A stretch of DNA of 64,000 bases from NCBI RefSeq assembly GCF_002831645.1, contig NZ_CP025117.1, positions 1,929,514 through 1,993,513 on the forward strand. The letters run 5' to 3'. Of the stretch, positions 28,286 through 64,000 are shown piece by piece. Each line of letters opens with the position of its first letter. Within the stretch, counting starts at the first letter, position 1. Made by a program: the position numbers and the translations under genes. The notes below the pieces were generated by a model. That model worked only from the letters and a program-made list of their open reading frames with translations, searched no databases and was not told the origin of the DNA. Source of the DNA: Olleya sp. Bg11-27 (GTDB lineage: Bacteria; Bacteroidota; Bacteroidia; Flavobacteriales; Flavobacteriaceae).

Positions 28286-28388
28286 GTAGTGGAGTTTGGG
28301 CGTTACCACAAGGGGCGCGTCTTCCATTATATCTTTTTTTTGCCATATATGGCAGCAAAAAAAAGGATGCCACTACAACCGCTAACGC
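28286..28388. repeat. MITE/REP-like intergenic element with interleaved inverted repeats
   Basis: Between guaA and the LysM gene lies a more G+C-rich block with two sets of short inverted repeats: GTAGTGG (28286-28292) with CCACTAC (28370-28376), and GCGTTA (28300-28305) with TAACGC (28383-28388). The pairs interleave. A third, perfect 11-bp hairpin (28333-28343 with 28355-28365, T-run then GC) sits in the centre. It looks like a small non-autonomous repeat element of the kind scattered through flavobacterial intergenic regions. There is only one copy in this window. Confidence 0.6.
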
Positions 28389-28411
28389 AGTTTGAAACGT
28401 ATAAATAACAT

Positions 28412-53162: not shown

Positions 53163-53807
53163 TCAATTAAGCTTAATGACCTTGTTTTTTATTGCATAAA
53201 GAACTAGTCCAATTCTGTTTTTTACTTCTAATTTATCAAATAAAACATCTCTGTAACCATCGATAGTTTTAGGGCTTAAAAACATTTTTGCAGCAATCTC
53301 TTTATAAGTTAATTCTGAGCAGACCAATTTTATAAACTCAATCTCTCTGTCTTTTAATTTTGGTTTTTTATTTGGGTCTTCGGTTAAGGAGTTTATTAAA
53401 ATATTAGAGACCTTTTTAGTGTGATAGTAGCCATTTATCATGACTTCGTTTAAAGTAAATTCTAACGTTTTTTTTTCGACATCTTTTAATAAGTAACCTT
53501 TTGCACCAGCTTTAAGCATTTTAATAATGCTTAGGTCATCGTCTACAACGGATAAAGCTATAACCTTAATATCAGGAAAATGGTCTTTTAAAAATTGTGT
53601 GGTTTCTATACCATTCATTATTGGCATATTAACATCCATTAATACTATATCTGGAGTATTGTTAGGCGTTTTTAATTTTGTAACTAACTCTTTTCCATTT
53701 TTACATAAATATAAAACCTCGAAATTATCAAAAGAGTTTACAAGTATGCTAATTGCTTGAGAAAGCAAAACATAATCTTCTACAATTACTACGCTGTAAG
53801 GTTTCAT
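53163..53807 (-). CDS. NarL/LuxR-type response regulator
   Basis: 214 residues. The receiver domain (1-120) has Asp58 as phosphorylation site (VLMDVNMP), an acidic pair VEDY near the start, and Lys in LLKDVEKK. The C-terminal LuxR-type helix-turn-helix (about 150-212) reads LTYKEIAAKMFLSPKTIDGY. Last gene of the lipoprotein-TM-kinase-regulator operon, overlapping the kinase gene by 4 bases. The obvious target is the divergent promoter region at 55876-56233. Confidence 0.93.
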   Translation of the reverse strand: MKPYSVVIVEDYVLLSQAISILVNSFDNFEVLYLCKNGKELVTKLKTPNNTPDIVLMDVNMPIMNGIETTQFLKDHFPDIKVIALSVVDDDLSIIKMLKAGAKGYLLKDVEKKTLEFTLNEVMINGYYHTKKVSNILINSLTEDPNKKPKLKDREIEFIKLVCSELTYKEIAAKMFLSPKTIDGYRDVLFDKLEVKNRIGLVLYAIKNKVIKLN

Positions 53808-54559
53808 CCTAATAGTTCTTTATAAAAAATTTGTAATTGGGTACCTTCATTTATTTTAGATGTAATGGTTGCTTCTGCATTTATTAGTTGCGCTCTTTTA
53901 ATAATGTTTTTAATACCCATTCCGTTAGGGATTTGTTCATTATTACTATTATTAAAACCTTGACCATTGTCTTTAGCTGTTATTTGTACAGTATTGTTTA
54001 GATATTGTATTGTTATCTCTAATGTGGTAGCTTTGGCGTGTTTGATTGTATTGGATAAAAATTCTTGAATAATTCTAAAAAAAACAATTTCTACTTCATT
54101 GTCTAAATGGACTTCATTACCTATTACATTTACTTTAGCCTTTAAGTATTCTAATTTATTTAGTCTGTCTGTTTCTTGTATAATGGCAGATACTAAAGAA
54201 CTATTTTTAAGCGTTTCTGGGCTTATAGACTTTGATAAGGCTCTAAGCTCTTTTAACCCTTTGTCTAAAGTTAGTAAAATATCTTCTTTATTAGTGCTGT
54301 TTTGAAGCTGAATTTTTGCTAAGGTTAGCAATTGTCCTATATTATCGTGTAATTCCCAGCTAATGTTTCTAAAGGTTTCTTCTCTTATTTCTATTTGTGT
54401 TTTTGCTATTTCTTGTCCAAAGCGTTTTTCAGAGTCTTTTTGTTTTAATATTAAGGTGTTTTTTCTTTTTTGAAATACAATAAAAAGTACTATTAGCATA
54501 ATACATAAAAACACTAGTATAAAAACTGCTATTAAAATTGCTTGTCCTTCTCGCTGCAT
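53804..54559 (-). CDS. sensor histidine kinase (HisKA_3 / NarX-type)
   Basis: 251 residues from ATG 54559 (MQREGQAILIAVF). An earlier in-frame start at 54580 would only add seven residues inside the preceding gene. One membrane helix (about 6-29), a short coiled coil, the HisKA_3 phosphoacceptor helix with His71 (SWELHDNIGQ), and an HATPase domain (N-box SNTIKHAK, G1 DNGQGF, G2 GMGIKNI). With almost no sensor domain of its own, it probably relies on the membrane protein encoded before it, whose gene it overlaps by 28 bases. Confidence 0.9.
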   Translation of the reverse strand: MQREGQAILIAVFILVFLCIMLIVLFIVFQKRKNTLILKQKDSEKRFGQEIAKTQIEIREETFRNISWELHDNIGQLLTLAKIQLQNSTNKEDILLTLDKGLKELRALSKSISPETLKNSSLVSAIIQETDRLNKLEYLKAKVNVIGNEVHLDNEVEIVFFRIIQEFLSNTIKHAKATTLEITIQYLNNTVQITAKDNGQGFNNSNNEQIPNGMGIKNIIKRAQLINAEATITSKINEGTQLQIFYKELLG

Positions 54560-55188
54560 ACAAAACCTATGATAAAACAAATGTTCATAATAATACTTAA
54601 AATATATTCTACCATAAATATACTTTGATAATTATCAAATTCTTCCCAATAATTTCTAATAATCCGTGTTGGTATTTTTCCAACAAAATAAAGTAATAGT
54701 CCAATGCTAATCCAAAACAGAAGGTTTTTTGATATGTATAGTATTTTATTACTGTTTAAAATGTCTAGAAAATAAAACGAAATACTAATAATTATAAAAA
54801 CAGCACCTACTATAAAAGGGATGGTTTGTATTTGAGTTAAATAATTTTGAAACCCAATATTTACTATAAAACTTAAAATGTAAAAAACAATAAAGTAGCT
54901 TATCCATTGTTTATGTTTTAATTTTTCAACATACTTTTTATAAAGGTAAAGTAAAAAAGTAAAATTGATTAGATGATAAATGTTATAAATAATAAAATTT
55001 GAGCCATACAAAGCATACCAATAACTACCAAAAAACTCAATTAAAACAATAAGCCAAAGTAAAATTAAGAAGTGTTTTAAATACGTGTACTTATATTTAA
55101 AGAAGTAAATTGAACCTATTATCGCTGTAATAAGTTCAATATACTTAACACTATGTTTTAAGTTTAAAAAAGAAATTTCTATTAGCAT
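54532..55188 (-). CDS. multi-pass membrane protein, putative sensory partner of the kinase
   Basis: 218 residues, almost wholly hydrophobic, with six to seven membrane helices and several aromatic residues and charges in the loops (SYWYALYGSN, NYWEEFDNYQ). I recognise no catalytic motif. Position between a lipoprotein gene (3-base gap) and a kinase lacking an input domain (28-base overlap) suggests it senses a signal in or across the membrane. Inferred from context only. Confidence 0.75.
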   Translation of the reverse strand: MLIEISFLNLKHSVKYIELITAIIGSIYFFKYKYTYLKHFLILLWLIVLIEFFGSYWYALYGSNFIIYNIYHLINFTFLLYLYKKYVEKLKHKQWISYFIVFYILSFIVNIGFQNYLTQIQTIPFIVGAVFIIISISFYFLDILNSNKILYISKNLLFWISIGLLLYFVGKIPTRIIRNYWEEFDNYQSIFMVEYILSIIMNICFIIGFVCSEKDKQF

Positions 55189-55191
55189 CGA

Positions 55192-55875
55192 TTAATCTTC
55201 TTTTTTTGGAGGTGGCGCAAGCTCTCCCTCATTTAAAATTGTACTAGTTAATTCCGTTTTGAATTTTGGTAAAAACGAAAAATTGAAACCTGCTTTTTGC
55301 TGTGTTTTTTGTGTTTTATAATATTTGTTTATTCTTTCTTTTTTATCCTGCGTATCATATACTAAAGACTCTAAAATGGTAAACTGACCTTTAATAGGGT
55401 TTGAATTATCATTTGGTTGTATTGCAAATGGTAAATGGTTTAAGGTTTTAAATTTTGATTTTGCAATTGCATTCTCTACCGTTGGAACAAAAAATACAGT
55501 TTGTTGATTTGCAAATTTATCAGAGGTTTTGTTGTTGTATCTACCCAAGTAGACTCTAATGCCAGATACGTTTTCTTTTGGATTTGCTTTTTGAATGGCA
55601 TCAATATAATTTATGTATTGTCTCATTTGATCTAAACTAAACCAAGCAAATTCTGTGTCTATAAACTGTTGATCTTTATAAATTTTTTTAAGCACAGGAT
55701 TAATCACCCGCTCTTTAAGTTGTTTTTCGGTATTAAACATATTTATAGCTTTTTCAATTTTCACGATTTGCTTTGGAGGTATTTCATTAGGCTTTTTATT
55801 CCCAAATTCGCAAGAATTAATTAGTAATATAACGGTTGCTAAAAATAAGAGTTTTAATGCGCTTAGTTTTTTCAT
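55192..55875 (-). CDS. lipoprotein, first gene of the sensory operon
   Basis: 227 residues. The signal peptide ends in a lipobox (INSC, Cys22). The mature part has no domain I know; it is mixed alpha/beta with an IRVYLGRYNNKT segment and a Pro/acidic C-terminus (APPPKKED). Together with the downstream membrane protein and kinase it may form an envelope sensor. The promoter must lie in the 55876-56233 region shared with the seven-gene operon. Confidence 0.78.
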   Translation of the reverse strand: MKKLSALKLLFLATVILLINSCEFGNKKPNEIPPKQIVKIEKAINMFNTEKQLKERVINPVLKKIYKDQQFIDTEFAWFSLDQMRQYINYIDAIQKANPKENVSGIRVYLGRYNNKTSDKFANQQTVFFVPTVENAIAKSKFKTLNHLPFAIQPNDNSNPIKGQFTILESLVYDTQDKKERINKYYKTQKTQQKAGFNFSFLPKFKTELTSTILNEGELAPPPKKED

Positions 55876-56078: not shown

Positions 56079-56233
56079 AAAAAGATAGAGTTATAAACCT
56101 AGTCTTATTTCGGTATTTATCCTCTCAATTTTATCCTAATATATCTTCAATTTTGTGAAGCAATAGTTGGAATTGCAAAGCGAAAACCGAAAAGCTTTAA
56201 AAGAGTAGGTAATTAATTAATCAATACATTAAA

Positions 56234-57103
56234 ATGAATCTTTATCAAGAAATTTATCATGGAGAATCATTCCATCAAGAGGATTTTTACGATGCAGCAC
56301 GTTATGTGTTTCATCAAGAATTATCTGAAGCAGCGCCAGAAGAAATAGACCAATATTTAATGGAGCGTATTAGTGGGATGACAGCCGAAGAAGCTGAAGG
56401 GTTTTGGAGCAGTTTAGGTAACGTAGCTAAAAAAGTTGGATCTGGAGTATTAAAAGTAGCATCTGTCGCTGCTCCAATTGCAGGTACAATAATAGGTGGT
56501 CCAGCTGGAGCTGCCATTGGTGGTTTAGCAGGTAATTTAGCTGGCGCTGGAGCTAAGGCATTAGACAGAGTCCCAAATTTTAGGTCTAGATCTGGTCGTC
56601 GTAGAAGAAGTAGGCCAACTAGAAGCAGACGGACAAGAAGTAGAAGAGGACGTAATGCTAGAAACCCAGAATTAAGACAAGCTTGGAATCAAACAAAGCA
56701 ATTTGCAGCTGGTGCTGGTAGAGCAGCTCTTAAAGGTGCTAGTAGGTATGCCGCAAATAATCCTGTGCAAGCAGCACATAGGCCAACTGGTCCAATTTTA
56801 GGTCAGAATTCTGCAGCAGTATTATCTAGTGTCATGAACAATCCTCAATTTAAAGCATTGCTTTTTGGAAGAGCAAACGGGCAAACTGAGTTTTACTCAG
56901 AAGATATTACAGAAAACGATTTTGATTATGTAGATATGGTAGAAACTATCAACTACTTAACTGAAGATATTATTGCAGAATATTATCAAGACGATTTATT
57001 AGATGATGATAGCTATTCAATTGACGAAGCAGGGGAATTAGTAGTGAATTACCCAGAAGACAGAATAGAACGAGTAGAAAGTTTTATTGAAGCGATAGCA
57101 TAA
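56234..57103 (+). CDS. glycine-zipper / Arg-rich / acidic protein, gene 1 of the seven-gene operon
   Basis: 289 residues, family not recognised. Order of segments: N-terminal helical part with aromatic-acidic repeats (1-60, EIYHGESFHQEDFYDAA), a hydrophobic Gly/Ala-rich stretch with GxxxG spacing (66-108, GTIIGGPAGAAIGGLAG) that could insert in a membrane, an Arg/Ser cluster (117-142) like nucleic-acid-binding or packaged proteins, an Ala-rich helix, and an acidic C-terminus (218-289) with the block YYQDDLLDDD. No signal peptide. The mixture of pore-like, basic and acidic parts suggests a structural or delivery protein. Inference only. Confidence 0.8.
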   Translation: MNLYQEIYHGESFHQEDFYDAARYVFHQELSEAAPEEIDQYLMERISGMTAEEAEGFWSSLGNVAKKVGSGVLKVASVAAPIAGTIIGGPAGAAIGGLAGNLAGAGAKALDRVPNFRSRSGRRRRSRPTRSRRTRSRRGRNARNPELRQAWNQTKQFAAGAGRAALKGASRYAANNPVQAAHRPTGPILGQNSAAVLSSVMNNPQFKALLFGRANGQTEFYSEDITENDFDYVDMVETINYLTEDIIAEYYQDDLLDDDSYSIDEAGELVVNYPEDRIERVESFIEAIA

Positions 57104-57114
57104 AAATAAACTAA

Positions 57115-57567
57115 ATGAATCCTTTATTAGAGTATATCAAGGCACAAAAGCCAGAATTAGCAGAAGTAATTACTGTTATAAACACCATGCAGTCTCAGCA
57201 ACAGGAAGACACAATAGATGTTACAAATACAGATCACATTCAAGACGATAATCTTATCCTTAATAACACTGTTAAAGATACACCAAATTCAAACCAAACA
57301 AAAGCTCTAAAAATGGAGATCTTAAAACTAAAACGATTGGTTAAGTTCTTAAAACAAGAAGTTATTAATGAATCAGAAATCAATCATGATTTTGCTTTAG
57401 CTGTTGGGGCCTGTACAGATTGTTTTGGGTGTGATGAAGACTGTAGTCACTGTAGTGGCAATGGTCAACCTGGCTTTTTTGTTCCTGATTTTATTCATTA
57501 TAAAGAGCTTATCATACCTGCTCAAAAAAAATACAATTTACACTTTAAGACAAATAACAATTATTAA
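57115..57567 (+). CDS. coiled-coil protein with five-cysteine knuckle, gene 2 of the seven-gene operon
   Basis: 150 residues, family not recognised. After a helical N-terminus and an Asn/Asp/Thr-rich linker comes a basic coiled coil (about 63-86, KALKMEILKLKRLVKFLKQE), then a compact cluster Cys100-x2-Cys103-x2-Cys106-x3-Cys110-x2-Cys113 followed by SGNGQPGFFVPD. The spacing fits a bound zinc or iron-sulfur cluster. No signal peptide, so the cysteines should be reduced at synthesis. 11 bases after gene 1 and 18 before gene 3. Confidence 0.78.
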   Translation: MNPLLEYIKAQKPELAEVITVINTMQSQQQEDTIDVTNTDHIQDDNLILNNTVKDTPNSNQTKALKMEILKLKRLVKFLKQEVINESEINHDFALAVGACTDCFGCDEDCSHCSGNGQPGFFVPDFIHYKELIIPAQKKYNLHFKTNNNY

Positions 57568-57585
57568 CAATTAAAATTTAAAATT

Positions 57586-58356
57586 ATGTATTATACAGAA
57601 GATTATTTTGACGACAGTTTATTAATAGAAGATTTATTAGACGACGGAATTTTTGACGAAGATTATTATGACGAAGATCTATTAGATGACGATTTATTAG
57701 ATGATGGCTATGGCGAGGATTTTGCTGAGAGAAGACGTCGTAGAAGAGGTAAGCGTTTTAAAAGATTGTCACCACGTATTAGTAGCAACGTAAAACAACG
57801 TTCTAATTTTGGTAAATCTGTTGCGGGTAATGTTAAGAATTATGTAACAAAAGCAGATTTAAAAATGGCTTTAAATAGCATTTCTAAAGATGTTAATGGA
57901 CTTAAAAGAACAGCTATTTCTAACAGTAAAACGCTAAAAGCTGTTGATGGTAAGTACTCTAATATTGTAAAAGATATTTCTAGAAAAGACGCTAATCAAA
58001 CTAAGGTTTTAAAAAATATGCAATCCATGAGTATGCTAGGTTCGATGCTTAATAAACCAAAGTTTGAAGAAGAAAATTTAATAGTAGAGTTTAAAGATGA
58101 TAAAGGGAATATTATAAACACATCAGAACATGGTACAGCAACCATTAAAGAAAAAGAAAATGATAAAACGATTAAGGTCGATCAAATGATGAGTATTTTA
58201 TTACCAATGTTATCAACTCAAGGTGATTCTGGTTCTGGAAAATCGTCAAATGATATGATGTTGCCATTGGTTTTAATGATGTCTCAACAAAATAGTGGAT
58301 CATCATCTTCTTCTGATATGATGTTGCCGTTAATTTTAATGATGTCAAACAAATAG
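57586..58356 (+). CDS. acidic/Arg-rich protein with Met-rich hydrophobic repeats, gene 3 of the seven-gene operon
   Basis: 256 residues, family not recognised. The first 46 residues are extremely acidic with DLLDD-type repeats (EDLLDDG, EDLLDDDLLDDGY), followed at once by ERRRRRRGKRFKR. The middle (about 85-150) is a coiled coil (KADLKMALNSISKDVNGLKR). The C-terminus has two near-identical DMMLPLxLMMS segments and a weaker third (MMSILLPMLS) separated by Gly/Ser linkers. It shares the YYxxDLLDDD block and the acid-next-to-Arg layout with gene 1. No signal peptide. A terminator-like hairpin follows. Confidence 0.78.
   Translation: MYYTEDYFDDSLLIEDLLDDGIFDEDYYDEDLLDDDLLDDGYGEDFAERRRRRRGKRFKRLSPRISSNVKQRSNFGKSVAGNVKNYVTKADLKMALNSISKDVNGLKRTAISNSKTLKAVDGKYSNIVKDISRKDANQTKVLKNMQSMSMLGSMLNKPKFEEENLIVEFKDDKGNIINTSEHGTATIKEKENDKTIKVDQMMSILLPMLSTQGDSGSGKSSNDMMLPLVLMMSQQNSGSSSSSDMMLPLILMMSNK
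58252..58347 (+). repeat. direct repeat encoding the Met-rich hydrophobic segments
   Basis: Two 33-base copies (58252-58284 and 58315-58347) both begin GATATGATGTTGCC and differ at only a few positions. They encode DMMLPLVLMMS and DMMLPLILMMS. Confidence 0.85.
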
Positions 58357-58366
58357 TCAGTCTTAT

Positions 58367-58418
58367 AAAAGGTGGTCTAAAATCTAGTTTAGCATTCTTT
58401 TTAACCACCTTTTTTATA
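58367..58418 (+). terminator. hairpin with T-run after gene 3, attenuator within the operon
   Basis: 10-bp stem (AAAAGGTGGT, 58367-58376, with 58404-58413), 27-base loop, then TTTTT. It lies in the only large gap (105 bases) of the seven-gene operon, so genes 1-3 may be made in excess over genes 4-7. Confidence 0.65.
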
Positions 58419-58461
58419 TCACAATTAAAATATTTATTTAATCCATTTAATACACATAGTC

Positions 58462-59091
58462 ATGTCGGAAATTAATAACCCCATTTGTAAAGACGAGTTA
58501 CTTTCTTTAAAAGAAGCAGTAACTTCAAATCCTAATTTTTTTCTTCAGTGGTTTATCCCCAAAAAAAGTGAAGAAGTAAAGGCTGAAATTGAAGAGAAGG
58601 AAACAGAAAGCACGACTCATTCAGATTCTATAAAAGATATTGCCAATCTGGTAAGTTCTATTAAAATATTCTTTGAAGAAGAAATCGAAAAAAATAAAGA
58701 GATACAAAAAGAATTTATTGAATTTATAAGAGGAAATGATGAGCCTTCTGTGGATTTGACAACATTTTTTAAGAAGTATAATTATGAAATTAAGCCTTTT
58801 TTTAAATCTTCAATTGAGAAAGAAATAACTTCTATTTCTGAAGGTGTAAAAGATGAAAAGTATATCGATAATTTAAAGCTTATCATTAAAAATAAAGATA
58901 AAAAATTAGTAGAAGATCATAAAAAATATATAAACCTGCTTGGAAAAGATTTTTTAAATAAAATAAAGTTCAAAGAAGATTTATCATTACGTGATCAATT
59001 ACACGTATCAAAAGTTTTAGGACATGTTTCTTCTTTTGTAAAGGAGGTAACATATTATACACCAGAAGAAACTAGTAATATAGAAGCTTAA
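58462..59091 (+). CDS. unknown charged helical protein, gene 4 of the seven-gene operon
   Basis: 209 residues, Lys/Glu-rich and predicted mostly helical, without signal peptide, membrane segment or motif I can name. The N-terminal part (LKEAVTSNPNFFLQWFIPKK) is the most distinctive. It precedes the subtilase gene by 5 bases and could be its partner or inhibitor, but nothing in the sequence shows that. Confidence 0.7.
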   Translation: MSEINNPICKDELLSLKEAVTSNPNFFLQWFIPKKSEEVKAEIEEKETESTTHSDSIKDIANLVSSIKIFFEEEIEKNKEIQKEFIEFIRGNDEPSVDLTTFFKKYNYEIKPFFKSSIEKEITSISEGVKDEKYIDNLKLIIKNKDKKLVEDHKKYINLLGKDFLNKIKFKEDLSLRDQLHVSKVLGHVSSFVKEVTYYTPEETSNIEA

Positions 59092-59096
59092 GTCTT

Positions 59097-60830
59097 ATGG
59101 ATTCCAAACTAAAACTGATTGTAAAAGGTAACCCAAAAGAAGAGCTACAGTTATTATTAAGGTTAAAAAGTGCAGATATCTATCCTAAAAAATGCAAGAT
59201 TATATCTCAGTTTCATGATGTTATTAGTTGTCGTATTTTAAGAAAAGATGTATTGTCTGTTTATGATGATCCTGCAACCTTTAGTTTAAAAGCACCTCAA
59301 GTTATTCCAGCACAGCTTTATAAGGATTCAAGATTTAATAATATTTTTTCTGAACAAATAAATCAAAAAATCCCAAAAACTATAAAAAGTAATGTGGTTT
59401 TTGGTATTGTTGATTTTGGATTTGATTTTACACATTCTAATTTTTTAGATAGTGATGGAGAAACAAGATTTGAGAAAATTTGGGTGCAACCCTCAAAACA
59501 AAAACAGAATAATAAGTATGGCTATGGTAAGATTTTTACAGGAGCAACTATAAATCAATCCTTAAAGACACCTTTACCATTTAAAGATTTAGGCTATCAT
59601 CCCGGTAAAAACGATTTTATGGGTAGAGGTATGCATGGGACGCATGTACTAGGAATAGCTGCTTCTTCTGGATATATAGGACCAAAAAGTATAGCCGGAA
59701 ATAGCCCAATTGTAGCAGTAGATATGGGGTCTAGTTATGTTAATGGATCGGATTTGTCTTTAGGCGATTCTGTTAAATTAATCGAAGGGTTAGATTTTAT
59801 TTTAAACCAAGCTGGACAAAGACCATGTGTTATTAATATGAGTTTAGGTGGGCATTGTAGTGATCATACAGGAAAAACTTTAGTTGAAATTGCATTAAAT
59901 AATATTGTTAAAAAAAGAGGTGGTACTGTTATTATACAAAGTACAGGGAACTATTTTATGGCTAATTGCCATCATGCTGGAATTTTAGAACAAGATAAAG
60001 TGGTTGATATCGAATGGAAATTTAAGGCTAGAGATAAATCGGCAAATGAAATTGAAATATGGTACGAAAACCAAGATAGAATAGCTGTAGAAATCTTGGA
60101 TGCAGATGGTAATGTTTTAGGGAAGTCAGAGCCTTTTGAGGATAGTATTGTTAATTATGATAATTCGCAAAATGGTGTGATCTTTCATAGGTTTAATGAA
60201 CCTAATTCTAGTAAAAATCATATTAATATTATTTTGTCAAAAAGACCCGAATCTAGGGTTTTATTTGTAAGACTAATAGGTCAAAGCATTAGTGATGGAG
60301 AGTATCATGCCTATATAGAAAGGGATGATGTAGGTCAATCCTGTTTTGCGACTCAAAATGTAAACACCAATTTTACAGTTGGATCTATATGTAATGCACC
60401 TTTAACAATTGCGGTTGGTGCTTATAACCAAAAGGTCAAATCTAAAAAGCCAATGTCTTTTAGTAGTGCAGGTCCAACAATTGATAGACGAATAAAACCA
60501 GAGATTTTAGCGGCAGGAAATAAAATTTTAGCAGCTAAATCTGCAAGTAAGTTTCAGCAAAAATCAAAGCAAGAATTAACCACAAAAAGTGGCTCAAGTA
60601 TGGCGTCTCCTTATGTTGCTTCATTGGCAGTTCATATACTCGAACATTTTCCAAAAATGAATATTTATGAGCTTAGACAATTACTATTTAATAGTTGCGA
60701 GCCATTAAAAGCAATGGACAGTACCATTGTAAATAAATCGGGATATGGAGTGATTAGCCCTCAAAAATTAAATAGATTAATCACATTAAAAAAGAAACAC
60801 TATGAGAACTATAAATCAACACAGATATAA
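59097..60830 (+). CDS. subtilisin-like protease without signal peptide, gene 5 of the seven-gene operon
   Basis: 577 residues. The complete S8 triad is visible: Asp106 (IVDFGFD), His180 (GRGMHGTHVLGI) and Ser501 (KSGSSMASP), with Asn285 in QSTGNY for the oxyanion hole. About 95 residues precede the catalytic domain and a ~115-residue insert (about 300-415) splits it before the serine, an arrangement also known in Csp-type subtilases. There is no signal peptide and no sorting domain, unlike the secreted subtilase at 39124. Its 3' end overlaps the next gene by 29 bases. Probably processes proteins of its own operon; that is inference. Confidence 0.88.
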   Translation: MDSKLKLIVKGNPKEELQLLLRLKSADIYPKKCKIISQFHDVISCRILRKDVLSVYDDPATFSLKAPQVIPAQLYKDSRFNNIFSEQINQKIPKTIKSNVVFGIVDFGFDFTHSNFLDSDGETRFEKIWVQPSKQKQNNKYGYGKIFTGATINQSLKTPLPFKDLGYHPGKNDFMGRGMHGTHVLGIAASSGYIGPKSIAGNSPIVAVDMGSSYVNGSDLSLGDSVKLIEGLDFILNQAGQRPCVINMSLGGHCSDHTGKTLVEIALNNIVKKRGGTVIIQSTGNYFMANCHHAGILEQDKVVDIEWKFKARDKSANEIEIWYENQDRIAVEILDADGNVLGKSEPFEDSIVNYDNSQNGVIFHRFNEPNSSKNHINIILSKRPESRVLFVRLIGQSISDGEYHAYIERDDVGQSCFATQNVNTNFTVGSICNAPLTIAVGAYNQKVKSKKPMSFSSAGPTIDRRIKPEILAAGNKILAAKSASKFQQKSKQELTTKSGSSMASPYVASLAVHILEHFPKMNIYELRQLLFNSCEPLKAMDSTIVNKSGYGVISPQKLNRLITLKKKHYENYKSTQI

Positions 60831-61644
60831 TGGGTATTCTAACGATAGTTTTGCAGAATTAAATAGCTCTAATGAGATAAAAGAAATTCAGCGATTTTTA
60901 ATCCAAAAAGGATATGATTTAGGACGTTGGGGAGCAGATGGCGATTTAGGACGAGATACCAAGCAAGCTATTTATGACTTTATTAAGTTGCAAAATGGAG
61001 GAAACCAACAACCCAATAATAATACACCAACAACACCATCTTCAACTACTAATTTAGTACGCGAGTTTAAATCTATTTTTAACCGTAAAAACTATGTGTT
61101 TCAAGACGACGAACTTAGATTAAATATTATTGGAATTAGAAATTTAGATGCCAATGCGGATTTATTTGATGACGAGTTAGTCGTTATTTGGAAAGAAAAC
61201 GGATCCTATAAAGTAAAACGTTATCCATTAACTACAGACCCGGGAAAAGGGTATTTAGGTAGTGTTATGATAAATCCAAAAGGGACGGCAATACTAAAGG
61301 CCGGACAATACAGAAATGCCTATAAGTTAGGATTACATAGAAGTAAATATATTGCTTTAGTGCAACGTAATGGACCCGTAACTGTTTATAGAGATAATAA
61401 TAAAAACGGAAGTTTAGATTTTATGATTGGAAATCAGGATAGTGGTTACTTTGGAATCAATATTCATAAAGCAGGAACCAATTCTGCACGAGTTAATAAA
61501 TGGTCTGCTGGTTGTCAGGTATTTAAAAGAGAAGCCCATTTTAACGAGCTTATTAGTCTTTGTAAAAAATCTGAACGTAAGTATGGAGCAGGTACTAAGT
61601 TTACCTATACGTTACTAGAAAAAAGAGGCGTGTCTATTTTATAA
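60802..61644 (+). CDS. peptidoglycan-binding protein with L,D-transpeptidase-like motif, gene 6 of the seven-gene operon
   Basis: 280 residues. A short leader (NGYSNDSFAELNSSNE) precedes a PG_binding_1 domain (about 24-66: EIQRFLIQKGYDLG, GADGDLGRDTKQAIYDF), a Pro/Thr/Asn linker, and a domain (about 85-278) in which His222 (INIHKAGTN) and Cys238 (WSAGCQVF) are arranged like the H...S-x-G-C active site of YkuD-type L,D-transpeptidases. Overall similarity to that family is weak, so another cysteine hydrolase is possible. No signal peptide. It starts inside the subtilase gene and ends 7 bases before gene 7. Confidence 0.78.
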   Translation: MRTINQHRYNGYSNDSFAELNSSNEIKEIQRFLIQKGYDLGRWGADGDLGRDTKQAIYDFIKLQNGGNQQPNNNTPTTPSSTTNLVREFKSIFNRKNYVFQDDELRLNIIGIRNLDANADLFDDELVVIWKENGSYKVKRYPLTTDPGKGYLGSVMINPKGTAILKAGQYRNAYKLGLHRSKYIALVQRNGPVTVYRDNNKNGSLDFMIGNQDSGYFGINIHKAGTNSARVNKWSAGCQVFKREAHFNELISLCKKSERKYGAGTKFTYTLLEKRGVSIL

Positions 61645-61651
61645 TTAAAAA

Positions 61652-62920
61652 ATGATGATAACAATATATAATTATCCAGAGATAAATGAACAGTATTTTG
61701 GAGAACTAAATACGAATCAGGAAGTTAGAAAGGTGCAACGATTTTTACAAGCAAGAGGTTATGATTTAGGAAGCTACGGAGTAGATGGCGATTTAGGACA
61801 AAAAACAAAGAAAGCTTTGTACGATTATTTTAAAGTACAAATTAATAGAGGAGGACATGTACCCTCTCAAGTTACACCTACCAATCCATCAGTAACACCA
61901 ATAAGTGGTTATAAATTAGATAGGTTTATAGCTGCACATGGTTTTAAAACGTTTAGTAACAGTAACCAGATTAATGCTTTTTTTGTACAGCTTACAGGAA
62001 AGGATTTCTGTACTTGGTTTAAAGATCAAATAGGTTATAAAGGCTTTTGGGGAAATATCACTTTTGAAGGTCGTTCAAGACATGGAAGAAGTATACCAAG
62101 AAGTAATTTTGCAACTCATCAAGATAATTTTAATCGTGTTTGGGATAATATTGCTTTAATATTTAATGGAAACCTAGGCAATCATTCAATAAATATTTTT
62201 CAGTTTTTCGCATTAGTAAGCATCATTATTAATGAAACGGGAGGGACGTTTACACCGATTAGCGAAAGAGGAACTTTGGCTTATACGTTTGGAACTAATA
62301 ACGGAAGGAAATCTTCTTATAACACAGCAGGTGGTAATGTAAACGCACGAGCTTTATTTAGAGATCAGGTGTTTTTAAATGCGCACAGAGGTTTAGCTTA
62401 TTATAATCAAGTCGCTAACACAACAAGCAGTGTTTGGGCTGGTACACAATATCCATCATCCTATCCAACAGATCCATCTGTTGCAGGAATTATTGCAGAA
62501 GCAGATTTTTACAAGTTTAGAGGTCGTGGTTTAATACAATCTACTTTTAGAAGTACTTATTCACGATTAATTGATTTTATAAGGACCTATTCAGGGACTA
62601 ATTCCACATTACTAAGTTATAAAAACAGATGGCACTCGTTAAATGACTCGGTTATTTTGTCTACAAGTAGAAACACAGATTGGGATGCCTTATTTTTAAA
62701 TTCTAATTTAGAATTTCCATGCTATGCAATTTATAATTTCCAACATAGACGAAATGATTTTTTAAATATTCTGCCAACCAAGTCTAAGTTAATTCAAGAA
62801 TCTACAGTAAGAAGTGGTAGTGGGTCTTTGTTTTATGTTGGCTATCGTGTTGGTGGTTCGCAAAGATACGGACGACTTTTAAAGAAACGTGTAATACAAA
62901 TGATAGAGACGTTAGCTTAG
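61652..62920 (+). CDS. peptidoglycan-binding protein with GH19/lysozyme-like domain, gene 7 of the seven-gene operon
   Basis: 422 residues. The N-terminus is paralogous to gene 6: leader NEQYFGELNTNQE and PG_binding_1 domain (about 23-64: KVQRFLQARGYDLG, GVDGDLGQKTKKALYDYF). The catalytic part (about 160-420) looks like a chitinase GH19/endolysin-type lysozyme fold, with a candidate acid Glu195 (INETGG) and the conserved loop FRGRGLIQSTFRSTY (289-303). It should cleave glycan strands, most likely peptidoglycan. No signal peptide. Last gene of the operon; no terminator is evident before the convergent meaB. Confidence 0.8.
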   Translation: MMITIYNYPEINEQYFGELNTNQEVRKVQRFLQARGYDLGSYGVDGDLGQKTKKALYDYFKVQINRGGHVPSQVTPTNPSVTPISGYKLDRFIAAHGFKTFSNSNQINAFFVQLTGKDFCTWFKDQIGYKGFWGNITFEGRSRHGRSIPRSNFATHQDNFNRVWDNIALIFNGNLGNHSINIFQFFALVSIIINETGGTFTPISERGTLAYTFGTNNGRKSSYNTAGGNVNARALFRDQVFLNAHRGLAYYNQVANTTSSVWAGTQYPSSYPTDPSVAGIIAEADFYKFRGRGLIQSTFRSTYSRLIDFIRTYSGTNSTLLSYKNRWHSLNDSVILSTSRNTDWDALFLNSNLEFPCYAIYNFQHRRNDFLNILPTKSKLIQESTVRSGSGSLFYVGYRVGGSQRYGRLLKKRVIQMIETLA

Positions 62921-62960: not shown

Positions 62961-64000
62961 TTAAATTGATAACAAATAATCTGCAGCAGCAAAAGGCGTG
63001 GTTTGATTAGCTTCAATCAACGCAAGTTGCTTGTTTAGTTCTATTTTAATGTCAGGATTATTAAAAAAGACTGCTTTTAATTGTTCTTCAATGGTCTGTA
63101 GTAACCAAAACTTATTTTGTTCGGTACGTTTGGTATTAAAGTAGTTGTTCTGTTTGGTTAGAGTGATGTAATCGAAAATAACATCCCAGATGTCAGAGAT
63201 GCCCTCGTTAGTCAAAGCACTACATAAACTTACTTTAGGCTGCCAATCCGAGTCTTTTATAGGATACATATGTAAGGCACGGTTAAACTCGACTTTAGCT
63301 AATTTAGCACGTTTTACATTGTCTCCATCTGCTTTGTTAATGGCTATAGCATCTGCCATTTCAATAATACCACGTTTAATACCTTGCAGCTCGTCTCCGG
63401 CACCTGCCAGTTTTAAAAGCAGAAAAAAGTCAACCATACTATGTACAGCGGTTTCACTTTGCCCGACACCAACGGTTTCAATAATCACCGTGTCAAAACC
63501 TGCGGCTTCACAAAGGATAATAGTTTCTCGTGTTTTTCTGGCCACACCACCTAAAGATGTTCCAGAAGCGGATGGACGTATAAACGCATTGTTGTTTTTA
63601 ACCAAATCTTCCATTCTGGTTTTGTCACCTAGAATACTACCTTTAGTTATGCTACTACTCGGGTCCACAGCTAAGACTGCCACTTTTTTGTTTAAAGTGG
63701 TTAGATACGTTCCAAAAGCTTCAATAAAGGTGCTTTTTCCAACACCAGGCACACCGGTAATACCAATTCGTGTCGATTGGTTGGCATGTGGTAAGCAAGC
63801 TTTAATTATAGCATTAGCTTGCGCCGTATGTTTTGGATTTTTACTTTCTACTAAAGTAATGGCCTGACTTAAAGCGGTAATGTTTCCGTTTAAAATCGCG
63901 CTGACTAAATCCTTAGTGGTCCGTTGTAATCTACGTTTGGCTTTTAGTTTTAAAACAGCAGCTGCATTGGTCATTTCTGGAGAAGAAACGCCTTCAGTTT
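62961..64000 (-). CDS. meaB: methylmalonyl-CoA mutase-associated GTPase MeaB (ArgK family), 5' end outside window
   Basis: G3E-family GTPase that protects and loads adenosylcobalamin-dependent methylmalonyl-CoA mutase. Walker A is GITGVPGVGKSTF, then VLAVDPSSS, ETVGVGQSE and the base-specificity motif INKADGDN. An ATG at 63974 exists, but the frame stays open upstream to the window edge and encodes TEGVSSPE before it, a stretch I remember from flavobacterial MeaB N-termini. The true start is therefore probably beyond base 64000. No mutase gene is visible in the window. Confidence 0.93.
   Translation of the reverse strand, partial: TEGVSSPEMTNAAAVLKLKAKRRLQRTTKDLVSAILNGNITALSQAITLVESKNPKHTAQANAIIKACLPHANQSTRIGITGVPGVGKSTFIEAFGTYLTTLNKKVAVLAVDPSSSITKGSILGDKTRMEDLVKNNNAFIRPSASGTSLGGVARKTRETIILCEAAGFDTVIIETVGVGQSETAVHSMVDFFLLLKLAGAGDELQGIKRGIIEMADAIAINKADGDNVKRAKLAKVEFNRALHMYPIKDSDWQPKVSLCSALTNEGISDIWDVIFDYITLTKQNNYFNTKRTEQNKFWLLQTIEEQLKAVFFNNPDIKIELNKQLALIEANQTTPFAAADYLLSI

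Follow-up and report, generated by a model that had tools for sequence, protein, structure and literature searches.

The window analysed here is a stretch of 64,000 nucleotides from the 4.31 Mb, single-contig genome of Olleya sp. Bg11-27 (NZ_CP025117.1, positions 1,929,514 to 1,993,513), and the subject of this report is a 6.7 kb block of seven open reading frames (ORFs) at positions 56234–62920, all on the same strand (Table 1). The gaps between successive genes are 11, 18, 105, 5, −29 and 7 nt, with genes 5 and 6 overlapping. The original prediction, made from the sequence without database searches, had reported seven ORFs on one strand at these coordinates, with a subtilase as gene 5 and no visible signal peptide in any of the products, and all three points are borne out. 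Gene 5 matches Pfam PF00082 at 1.6e-30. None of the seven proteins has a signal-peptide-like start in a Kyte-Doolittle scan of the first 40 residues, which was used without a dedicated signal-peptide predictor. The highest 11-residue mean hydropathy among them is 1.5 (gene 2), and the neighbouring divergent lipoprotein reaches 3.28 in the same scan.

Table 1. Features of the seven-gene block and its flanks in the Olleya window. Flanking genes are not part of the core.
Feature	Position	Strand	Description
Gene 1	56234–57103	+	289 aa; acidic N-domain, Gly/Ala zipper, Arg-rich linker, acidic C-domain
Gene 2	57115–57567	+	150 aa; coiled-coil-like region and four-Cys knuckle
Gene 3	57586–58356	+	256 aa; acidic/Arg-rich, 'YVT..DL' coiled-coil-like middle, Met/Leu-rich C-terminus
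Gene 4	58462–59091	+	209 aa; variable slot; charged, probably helical
Gene 5	59097–60830	+	577 aa; subtilase (S8), PF00082
Gene 6	60802–61644	+	280 aa; peptidoglycan-binding N-domain and L,D-transpeptidase/carboxypeptidase-type domain (about 100–277)
Gene 7	61652–62920	+	422 aa; peptidoglycan-binding N-domain and GH19/endolysin-like domain (about 100–422)
DUF805b RNA	56177–56211	+	Candidate cis-regulatory leader; Rfam RF02914; 22 nt before gene 1
Divergent lipoprotein	55192–55875	-	Flank; first gene of sensory operon; named by eye
Membrane protein	54532–55188		Flank; sensory operon
Histidine kinase	53804–54580		Flank; sensory operon; named by eye
Response regulator	53163–53807		Flank; sensory operon; named by eye
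meaB-like GTPase gene	62961–63974	-	Right border of insertion; named by eye

The block is rare and patchily distributed, the module being present in 1 of 395 genomes of the phylum. A scan of named genomes, by a method that finds close relatives only, gave one match, a complete block in Galbibacter orientalis with seven ORFs in identical order. Identities for genes 1 to 7 are 79, 62, 77, 26, 76, 75 and 70%. Gene 1 was found in no genome other than its own, either among 149 genomes of the family (single-sequence search) or among 10 of the genus, and gene 3 was found in 1 of 395 phylum genomes with a two-row profile. The five-row profile of gene 2 matched three of the 395 at an E value of 0.01, two of them falsely; these two, inside a tryptophan synthase alpha-like ORF (G175) and a VWA-like ORF (G583), both named by eye, were rejected. 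Searched alone, gene 5 was found at 1e-30 in 2 of 296 genomes, its own and G582, where the module genes are absent from the 4.4 kb read around the subtilase (locus L026). Gene 6 was found in 7 of 246 genomes of the order (its own, four with the catalytic domain and two with the peptidoglycan-binding part only), and gene 7 in 2 of 149 (its own and one broken weak match).

An ordered core of the block is also present on plasmids of other phyla. A tblastn search of 72,556 plasmid records with gene 5 matched 25, three of which covered at least 80% of the gene: those of Cupriavidus oxalaticus, Gemmatirosa kalamazoonensis and Streptomyces canus. In all three, the subtilase is immediately preceded on its own strand by ORFs like genes 1, 2 and 3 and a variable fourth, and the gene order is unchanged. 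When two-row profiles from the Bacteroidota were tested among 1877 ORFs, that of gene 2 found all three plasmids (6e-12, 5e-10 and 7e-7; the next, a false match, at 0.011), that of gene 3 found two (3.6e-5 and 0.031), that of gene 1 matched only a second Cupriavidus copy (4e-4) and that of gene 4 matched none. Strict leave-one-out profiles, realigned without the target and run against 3523 ORFs, recovered 9 out of 9 cases, with E values of 2e-14, 6e-20 and 1.5e-5 for gene 1, 3e-24, 8e-24 and 3e-13 for gene 2, and 6e-11, 1e-4 and 3e-8 for gene 3; the best ORF from the 18 other loci in the set scored 0.16. The core is composed of genes 1, 2 and 3, a variable gene 4 and the subtilase, and occurs in Bacteroidota, Pseudomonadota, Gemmatimonadota and Actinomycetota. 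With Cupriavidus proteins as queries, gene 2 matched three plasmid records (Cupriavidus, Gemmatirosa at 2e-14 and Streptomyces at 0.02), gene 1 matched two, and an 809-aa protein matched Cupriavidus itself only; the module is thus uncommon on sequenced plasmids as well. Counting against the core, 12 of 25 records pass 80% coverage when the Cupriavidus subtilase is the query, and genes 1–3 were found in none of eight further loci read on these plasmids (below).

Complete in G. orientalis and present as a core in three further phyla, the block recurs beyond chance. The proposal that the seven genes form one system is upheld in part by this synteny; the unit that crosses phyla is genes 1–3 with gene 5, and genes 6 and 7 are not part of it.

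The seven genes are an inserted block, flanked by a sensory operon and a meaB-like gene. This follows from an empty-site comparison with two relatives of the same family, G036 and G138, in which the operon and the meaB-like gene are neighbours without the block. The distance from the lipoprotein gene to the meaB-like gene is 7085 bp in the window, 848 bp in G036 and 195 bp in G138, the empty site. Identities to the window proteins in G036 and G138 are 71 and 78% for MeaB, 61 and 64% for the kinase and 68 and 78% for the regulator. The G036 gap holds a single unrelated ORF of 123 aa (L052 4678–5049), without a Pfam family, in place of the seven genes. In a further genome, G045, the operon lies beside a different neighbour and the block is absent; the G072 locus ends at a contig border and is uninformative on this point. 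The neighbourhoods in G036, G045 and G138 do not support strict co-inheritance of the block with the sensory operon beside it, and this idea was dropped. Given the patchiness of the block and the presence of the operon without it in relatives, the operon does not need the block.

In G. orientalis the lipoprotein and sensor genes also adjoin the block. No meaB-like gene was found in the 21 kb read there, and the right flank differs; the meaB-like gene of this species is elsewhere, at 2.20 Mb of G743 C1, and the contig that carries the block has a length of 0.56 Mb. The G. orientalis operon is itself split by an ORF that by eye is transposase-like (L023 2590–3468), between the lipoprotein and membrane-protein genes.

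The DUF805b RNA before gene 1 scores 50.6 bits, against an Rfam gathering cut-off of 35.6. It also precedes gene 1 of G. orientalis (L023 4562–4596, 42.4 bits), and in G036 it stands in the same place before the unrelated ORF (L052 4625–4658, 36.9 bits). No copy above the cut-off is present in loci L051, L053, L054 and L055. A strict DNA pattern of the element occurs in 2 of 104 genomes, its own and G036, once each and exactly at these sites. Since the element precedes different genes beside the same operon, the leader has the sensory operon on one side and exchangeable genes on the other. It is possible that this is a regulated site at which genes are exchanged, each time beside the same sensory operon; that the neighbouring sensor acts on the leader is a guess. 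Nothing on DUF805b was found among open-licence papers, and the block supplies this Rfam element with a concrete operon and a neighbouring sensor. Elsewhere in the window there is a candidate Flavo-1 small RNA (28309–28396, reverse strand; Rfam RF01705, 44.1 bits, cut-off 42).

Genes 1–4 have no convincing family in Pfam, PHROGs, PADLOC or NCBIfam, which for genes 1–3 agrees with their description in the original prediction as unlike known families. Their weak Pfam, PHROG and PADLOC matches have E values of 0.004 or worse and were discounted, as they look like low-complexity or coiled-coil similarity. A PdsO match of gene 1 (5e-4; 19.7 versus 152 bits) was also rejected, as it spans only the Gly zipper and the Arg-rich stretch. 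The Gly/Ala zipper of gene 1 lies at about residues 71–106, and the end domains are recognisable across homologues. Both gene 1 and gene 3 have homologues in loci L023 (G. orientalis; 79 and 77%, respectively), L027, L028 and L029. From these sequence features, the gene 1 product is a candidate membrane-active or scaffold protein. The five cysteines noted earlier in gene 2 are present. Four of them, C100, C103, C110 and C113, form a CxxCxG...CxxCxGxG knuckle conserved in 5 out of 5 homologues, and the fifth, C106, is found in 2 out of 5. The knuckle presumably resembles half of a DnaJ-type zinc site. The C-terminus of gene 3 has short Met/Leu-rich repeats, which are Leu-rich in Streptomyces.

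The fourth slot is the variable one. Gene 4 has 26% identity to the gene in the same slot in G. orientalis (L023 6746–7438), as against 62–79% for the other six. The occupant in Cupriavidus is a PASTA protein (3.3e-9) and that in Gemmatirosa a coiled-coil protein (below cut-off). The Pfam match of gene 4 to BrxC_BrxD (0.035) is likewise below cut-off, at 13.5 versus 22.2 bits. Gene 4 is a fast-evolving slot, encoding a protein that may face a target or an inhibitor.

The subtilase has an intact Asp-His-Ser triad and oxyanion Asn, with D106, H180, N285 and S501 conserved in 5 out of 5 sequences. Between N285 and S501 there is a long insert (213–216 residues separate the two), and 105–143 residues precede the catalytic Asp. 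When its profile was compared with solved structures, Csp germination proteases ranked first, the best at 1.6e-47 and CspB (4i0w_B) at 3.9e-39. The alignment opens only at profile position 98; it enters where the catalytic domain begins, crosses the insert without a break and stops near the end. The NCBIfam cut-offs for CspBA (101.2 versus 1250 bits) and CspC (90.1 versus 675 bits) are missed, and gene 5 is therefore classed as a Csp relative rather than a member. According to an excerpt of PMC3567191, CspB keeps its prodomain and has a jellyroll insert of about 130 aa, and without its activity the cortex hydrolase SleC is not cleaved efficiently.

Gene 5 also has a weak likeness to defence subtilases (PADLOC subtilase at 1.9e-14 and IetS at 1e-7). 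An anti-phage or abortive infection function, in which infection triggers the subtilase, the wall enzymes are unleashed and the infected cell dies, would fit this likeness, the mobile and patchy distribution of the block and the occurrence of related subtilases near caspase/CHAT and phospholipase D-like genes. The similarity is limited, however, to the generic subtilase domain, no partner ATPase is above the Pfam cut-off among the seven proteins, and the PADLOC matches of genes 1–3 are weak (best 0.004). This explanation is improbable.

Genes 6 and 7 had been described as an L,D-transpeptidase-like and a glycoside hydrolase family 19 (GH19)-like protein, both with peptidoglycan-binding domains, and the results for both agree. 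Their PG_binding_1-like N-termini score 22.8 and 22.4 bits, just under the Pfam cut-off of 23, and are 54% alike over 67 aa. Residues 111–275 of gene 6 match PHROG 3000 (phage-type, function unnamed) at 6.7e-36, and this catalytic domain is widespread in phages, with relatives in 26 phage records and 161 IMG/VR stretches. The best 80 of the 161 were kept, and 37 of these viral loci were aligned with the window and G. orientalis genes (39 rows; six loci with a stop in range and one duplicate were left out). H222, S235, G237 and C238 are present in all 39 rows, forming an H...SxGC pattern that we take to be the catalytic motif of YkuD L,D-transpeptidases/carboxypeptidases. Gene 6 has no Pfam YkuD match, and Foldseek alone is weak (best E 0.089). 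The AlphaFold2 model of gene 6 has a predicted local distance difference test (pLDDT) score of 77.6. Compared with 993 chains using VIA, it gives L,D-transpeptidases or L,D-carboxypeptidases in 29 of the 30 top rows, at Z 5.8–8.9; the best of them has a root mean square deviation (rmsd) of 4.0 over 129 aa, and Z falls to 3.0 at the next unrelated row. This count includes Pgp2, Bd1075, Csd6, DpaA, Tlde1a and 1zat, which are assumed to be enzymes of this kind; row 8, 4xxt, has a different title.

The gene 7 alignment has 12 rows, made up of the window, G. orientalis and 10 of 12 viral loci. E195 and E205, presumably the two catalytic Glu of a GH19-like endolysin, are present in all 12. The gene 7 model (pLDDT 77.5), compared with 100 chains, gives 12 of 13 top rows titled endolysin, GH19 chitinase or TseP, the remaining one being a putative phage protein (7r6s). 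Z values for these 13 are 7.1–9.8, with a best rmsd of 3.2 over 181 aa, and the next row is at Z 2.5. Foldseek gave a best E of 0.056; there is no Pfam GH19 match and no match to phage records at 1e-5. As VIA Z values below 8 may reflect a common fold arrangement, weight was placed on the coherence of the lists and on the drop that follows them. Genes 6 and 7 thus model as L,D-transpeptidase-type and GH19-type folds. Scans of viral sequences using A7, A1, A5 and A8 found no relatives, and gene 3 had no plain tblastn match in phages at E 0.1.

Phage-type catalytic domains without signal-peptide-like starts are also what would be expected of holin-endolysin-type programmed lysis or type 10 secretion (T10SS). 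Gene 1 would then open the inner membrane and genes 6 and 7 lyse the producer, releasing something else, with the protease merely maturing the endolysins. To our knowledge, cassettes of this kind have no counterpart of genes 2, 3 and 5, which counts against this explanation. In addition, no holin or spanin family was found among the seven proteins in PHROGs, and no other exported toxin was recognised in the block. Lytic release of cytoplasmic toxins by a T10SS is described in an excerpt of PMC10847048, and this alternative, while unlikely, keeps an appreciable share of the probability.

The structural neighbours TseP (gene 7, Z 9.8) and Tlde1a (gene 6, Z 6.0), the latter presumably a type VI effector, raise the possibility that genes 6 and 7 are antibacterial effectors delivered by a separate machine, such as type VI secretion, with genes 1–5 as accessory or adaptor genes. 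The peptidoglycan-binding domain also matches a solved 'Effector protein' (4nso, 1.3e-6), on which nothing was found among open-licence papers. No immunity or secretion gene was recognised in the block in Pfam or PHROGs, however, and there is no VgrG, Hcp, PAAR or immunity gene among the seven by Pfam, the rest of the genome not having been searched for type VI. Delivery by such a machine is considered quite improbable.

The frequency of the gene 6 domain in phages might suggest a degenerate phage, tailocin or extracellular contractile injection system (eCIS) remnant. Against this, matches of genes 1–4 to structural phage families are weak (a tape measure match on the Gly zipper is at 0.023), and the core is conserved in four phyla with an intact protease. 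Sheath family PF04984 has no match in the whole genome; the same search was positive in 3 of 14 controls. This result makes a contractile particle with a sheath of this family less likely. No tube, baseplate or AAA+ ATPase was found among the seven proteins (Pfam above cut-off, PHROGs), a search that did not extend to the rest of the genome. A remnant is very improbable.

Genes 6 and 7 are exchangeable cargo, as what lies downstream of the subtilase, or is fused to it, differs between loci. The Cupriavidus subtilase continues into two peptidoglycan-binding stretches. The Streptomyces subtilase carries a long extension and is followed by an M4 metallopeptidase, and that of Gemmatirosa is a 2253-aa ORF in which a metallo-lactamase-like stretch scores below cut-off. 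In Paenibacillus a peptidoglycan-binding protein, with an M74-like stretch below cut-off, lies about 4.6 kb from a related subtilase. Because peptidoglycan-binding domains repeat in genes 6 and 7, in the Cupriavidus subtilase and in the Paenibacillus neighbour, the cargo is tied to the protease. A second Cupriavidus locus on the opposite strand (L027 3682–6653) has a copy of gene 1 and the 809-aa protein, which is peptidoglycan-binding.

Relatives of single genes are found in other settings. Related subtilases without genes 1–3 lie near phospholipase D-like, caspase/CHAT, S53 and metallo-β-lactamase-fold genes. Rhizobial plasmids (L136, L138 and L030) combine a related subtilase, a small ORF and a phospholipase D-like gene, and have caspase/CHAT genes nearby; this looks like another conflict system. 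Plasmids of Nostoc and Rhizobium carry relatives of gene 7, and those of Hymenobacter and Tolypothrix carry relatives of gene 6; by profile, the stretches read around these relatives lack genes 1–3. The R. johnstonii gene 7 relative has, by eye, a start like that of a twin-arginine translocation substrate. In a 1338-aa Nostoc plasmid protein (L020 8965–12981) the gene 7 domain is at the C-terminus, and the large preceding part has no Pfam family at E 0.01.

Taken together, these features tentatively suggest, at somewhat less than even probability, that the block is a horizontally moving wall-attack cassette, in which proteins 1–4 hold wall enzymes that a Csp-like protease arms, for programmed lysis or attack. 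Proteins 1–3, with their Gly zipper, putative zinc knuckle and coiled coil, and Met/Leu-tailed coiled coil, respectively, would form a membrane- or scaffold-bound assembly, of which the gene 4 product would be the adaptable part. Proteins 1–4 would hold and position the machinery, with the subtilase as switch and the products of genes 6 and 7 as blades. The subtilase would be synthesised as a cytoplasmic zymogen, and on a signal it would mature and cut or free the peptidoglycan-binding enzymes, as CspB is needed for SleC. Protein 1 might open a lesion that lets the freed enzymes through to the peptidoglycan, or they might reach it when a subset of cells lyses, and the outcome would be programmed lysis or the release of wall-killing enzymes. 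We infer the assembly, the proteolytic activation, the exit route and the target, which may be the own cell, a sibling or a competitor. A broader formulation is held more tentatively still. Here the block would belong to an undescribed mobile system of four phyla, in which genes 1–3, a variable gene 4 and a Csp-like protease switch arm or release signal-less cargo. In the Bacteroidota this cargo would be the pair of peptidoglycan-binding enzymes, and the DUF805b leader beside the two-component sensor would time the switch.

Several observations weigh against the wall-attack cassette. Hydropathy shows no clear transmembrane helix in gene 1 (maximum 19-residue mean 1.5), which also matches no holin family in PHROGs. 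In the printed alignment the catalytic His is missing from the Csp chain ranked first, which means that gene 5 is closest to a chain other than an active protease, and homology of the N-terminal extension of gene 5 to the CspB prodomain is putative. The window genes 1 and 3 have no match in plasmids by plain tblastn at E 0.1, and the plasmid link therefore rests on profiles and gene order. Genes 1–3 were found, by profile or CxxCxG motif, in none of eight further plasmid subtilase loci (L030, L033 and L136–L141; L137 is cut at the record end with its upstream side hardly visible, and the remaining plasmid records are outside this count), so this type of protease works in other settings too. 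Lastly, no peptidoglycan-binding domain was found by Pfam in the scanned Gemmatirosa and Streptomyces proteins, and wall attack may therefore hold for some cargo only.

No description of such a module was found among open-licence papers, although the wording of the searches may have missed one. The block is rated new as a gene system, with moderate confidence because its function is a predicted one. Three families without a convincing library match form, together with an intact Csp-like protease, an ordered module found in four phyla. If the protease does arm wall enzymes, the zymogen logic of clostridial spore germination would recur in bacteria far removed from the spore formers, and simple genetics could test a route by which signal-less lysins are moved.

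Among known systems, polymorphic toxin and effector systems likewise have a conserved core, variable downstream or fused domains and a protease, and an excerpt of PMC3482391 lists subtilisin among their processing proteases. The block differs in that the seven proteins have no trafficking domain of type V, VI or VII secretion systems, Photorhabdus virulence cassettes (PVC) or toxin complexes (Tc) by Pfam, and in that its core families are unnamed. The PHROG 3000 domain is shared with gene 6, which differs by its peptidoglycan-binding fusion and its place in a block on a bacterial chromosome. IetAS-type systems have a partner ATPase beside the subtilase, whereas no ATPase family is above the Pfam cut-off among the seven genes. 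Holin-endolysin and T10SS cassettes resemble the block in having phage-type wall enzymes without signal-peptide-like starts beside a Gly-rich hydrophobic protein; the block has no recognised holin or spanin, and has instead a protease and conserved unnamed proteins. The Csp proteases and SleC share with it a subtilase with a long insert between the oxyanion Asn and the Ser and an N-terminal extension, and Csp is functionally tied to a peptidoglycan hydrolase. In contrast to these, gene 5 is linked to enzymes of the L,D-transpeptidase and GH19 types and to three proteins that have not been described.

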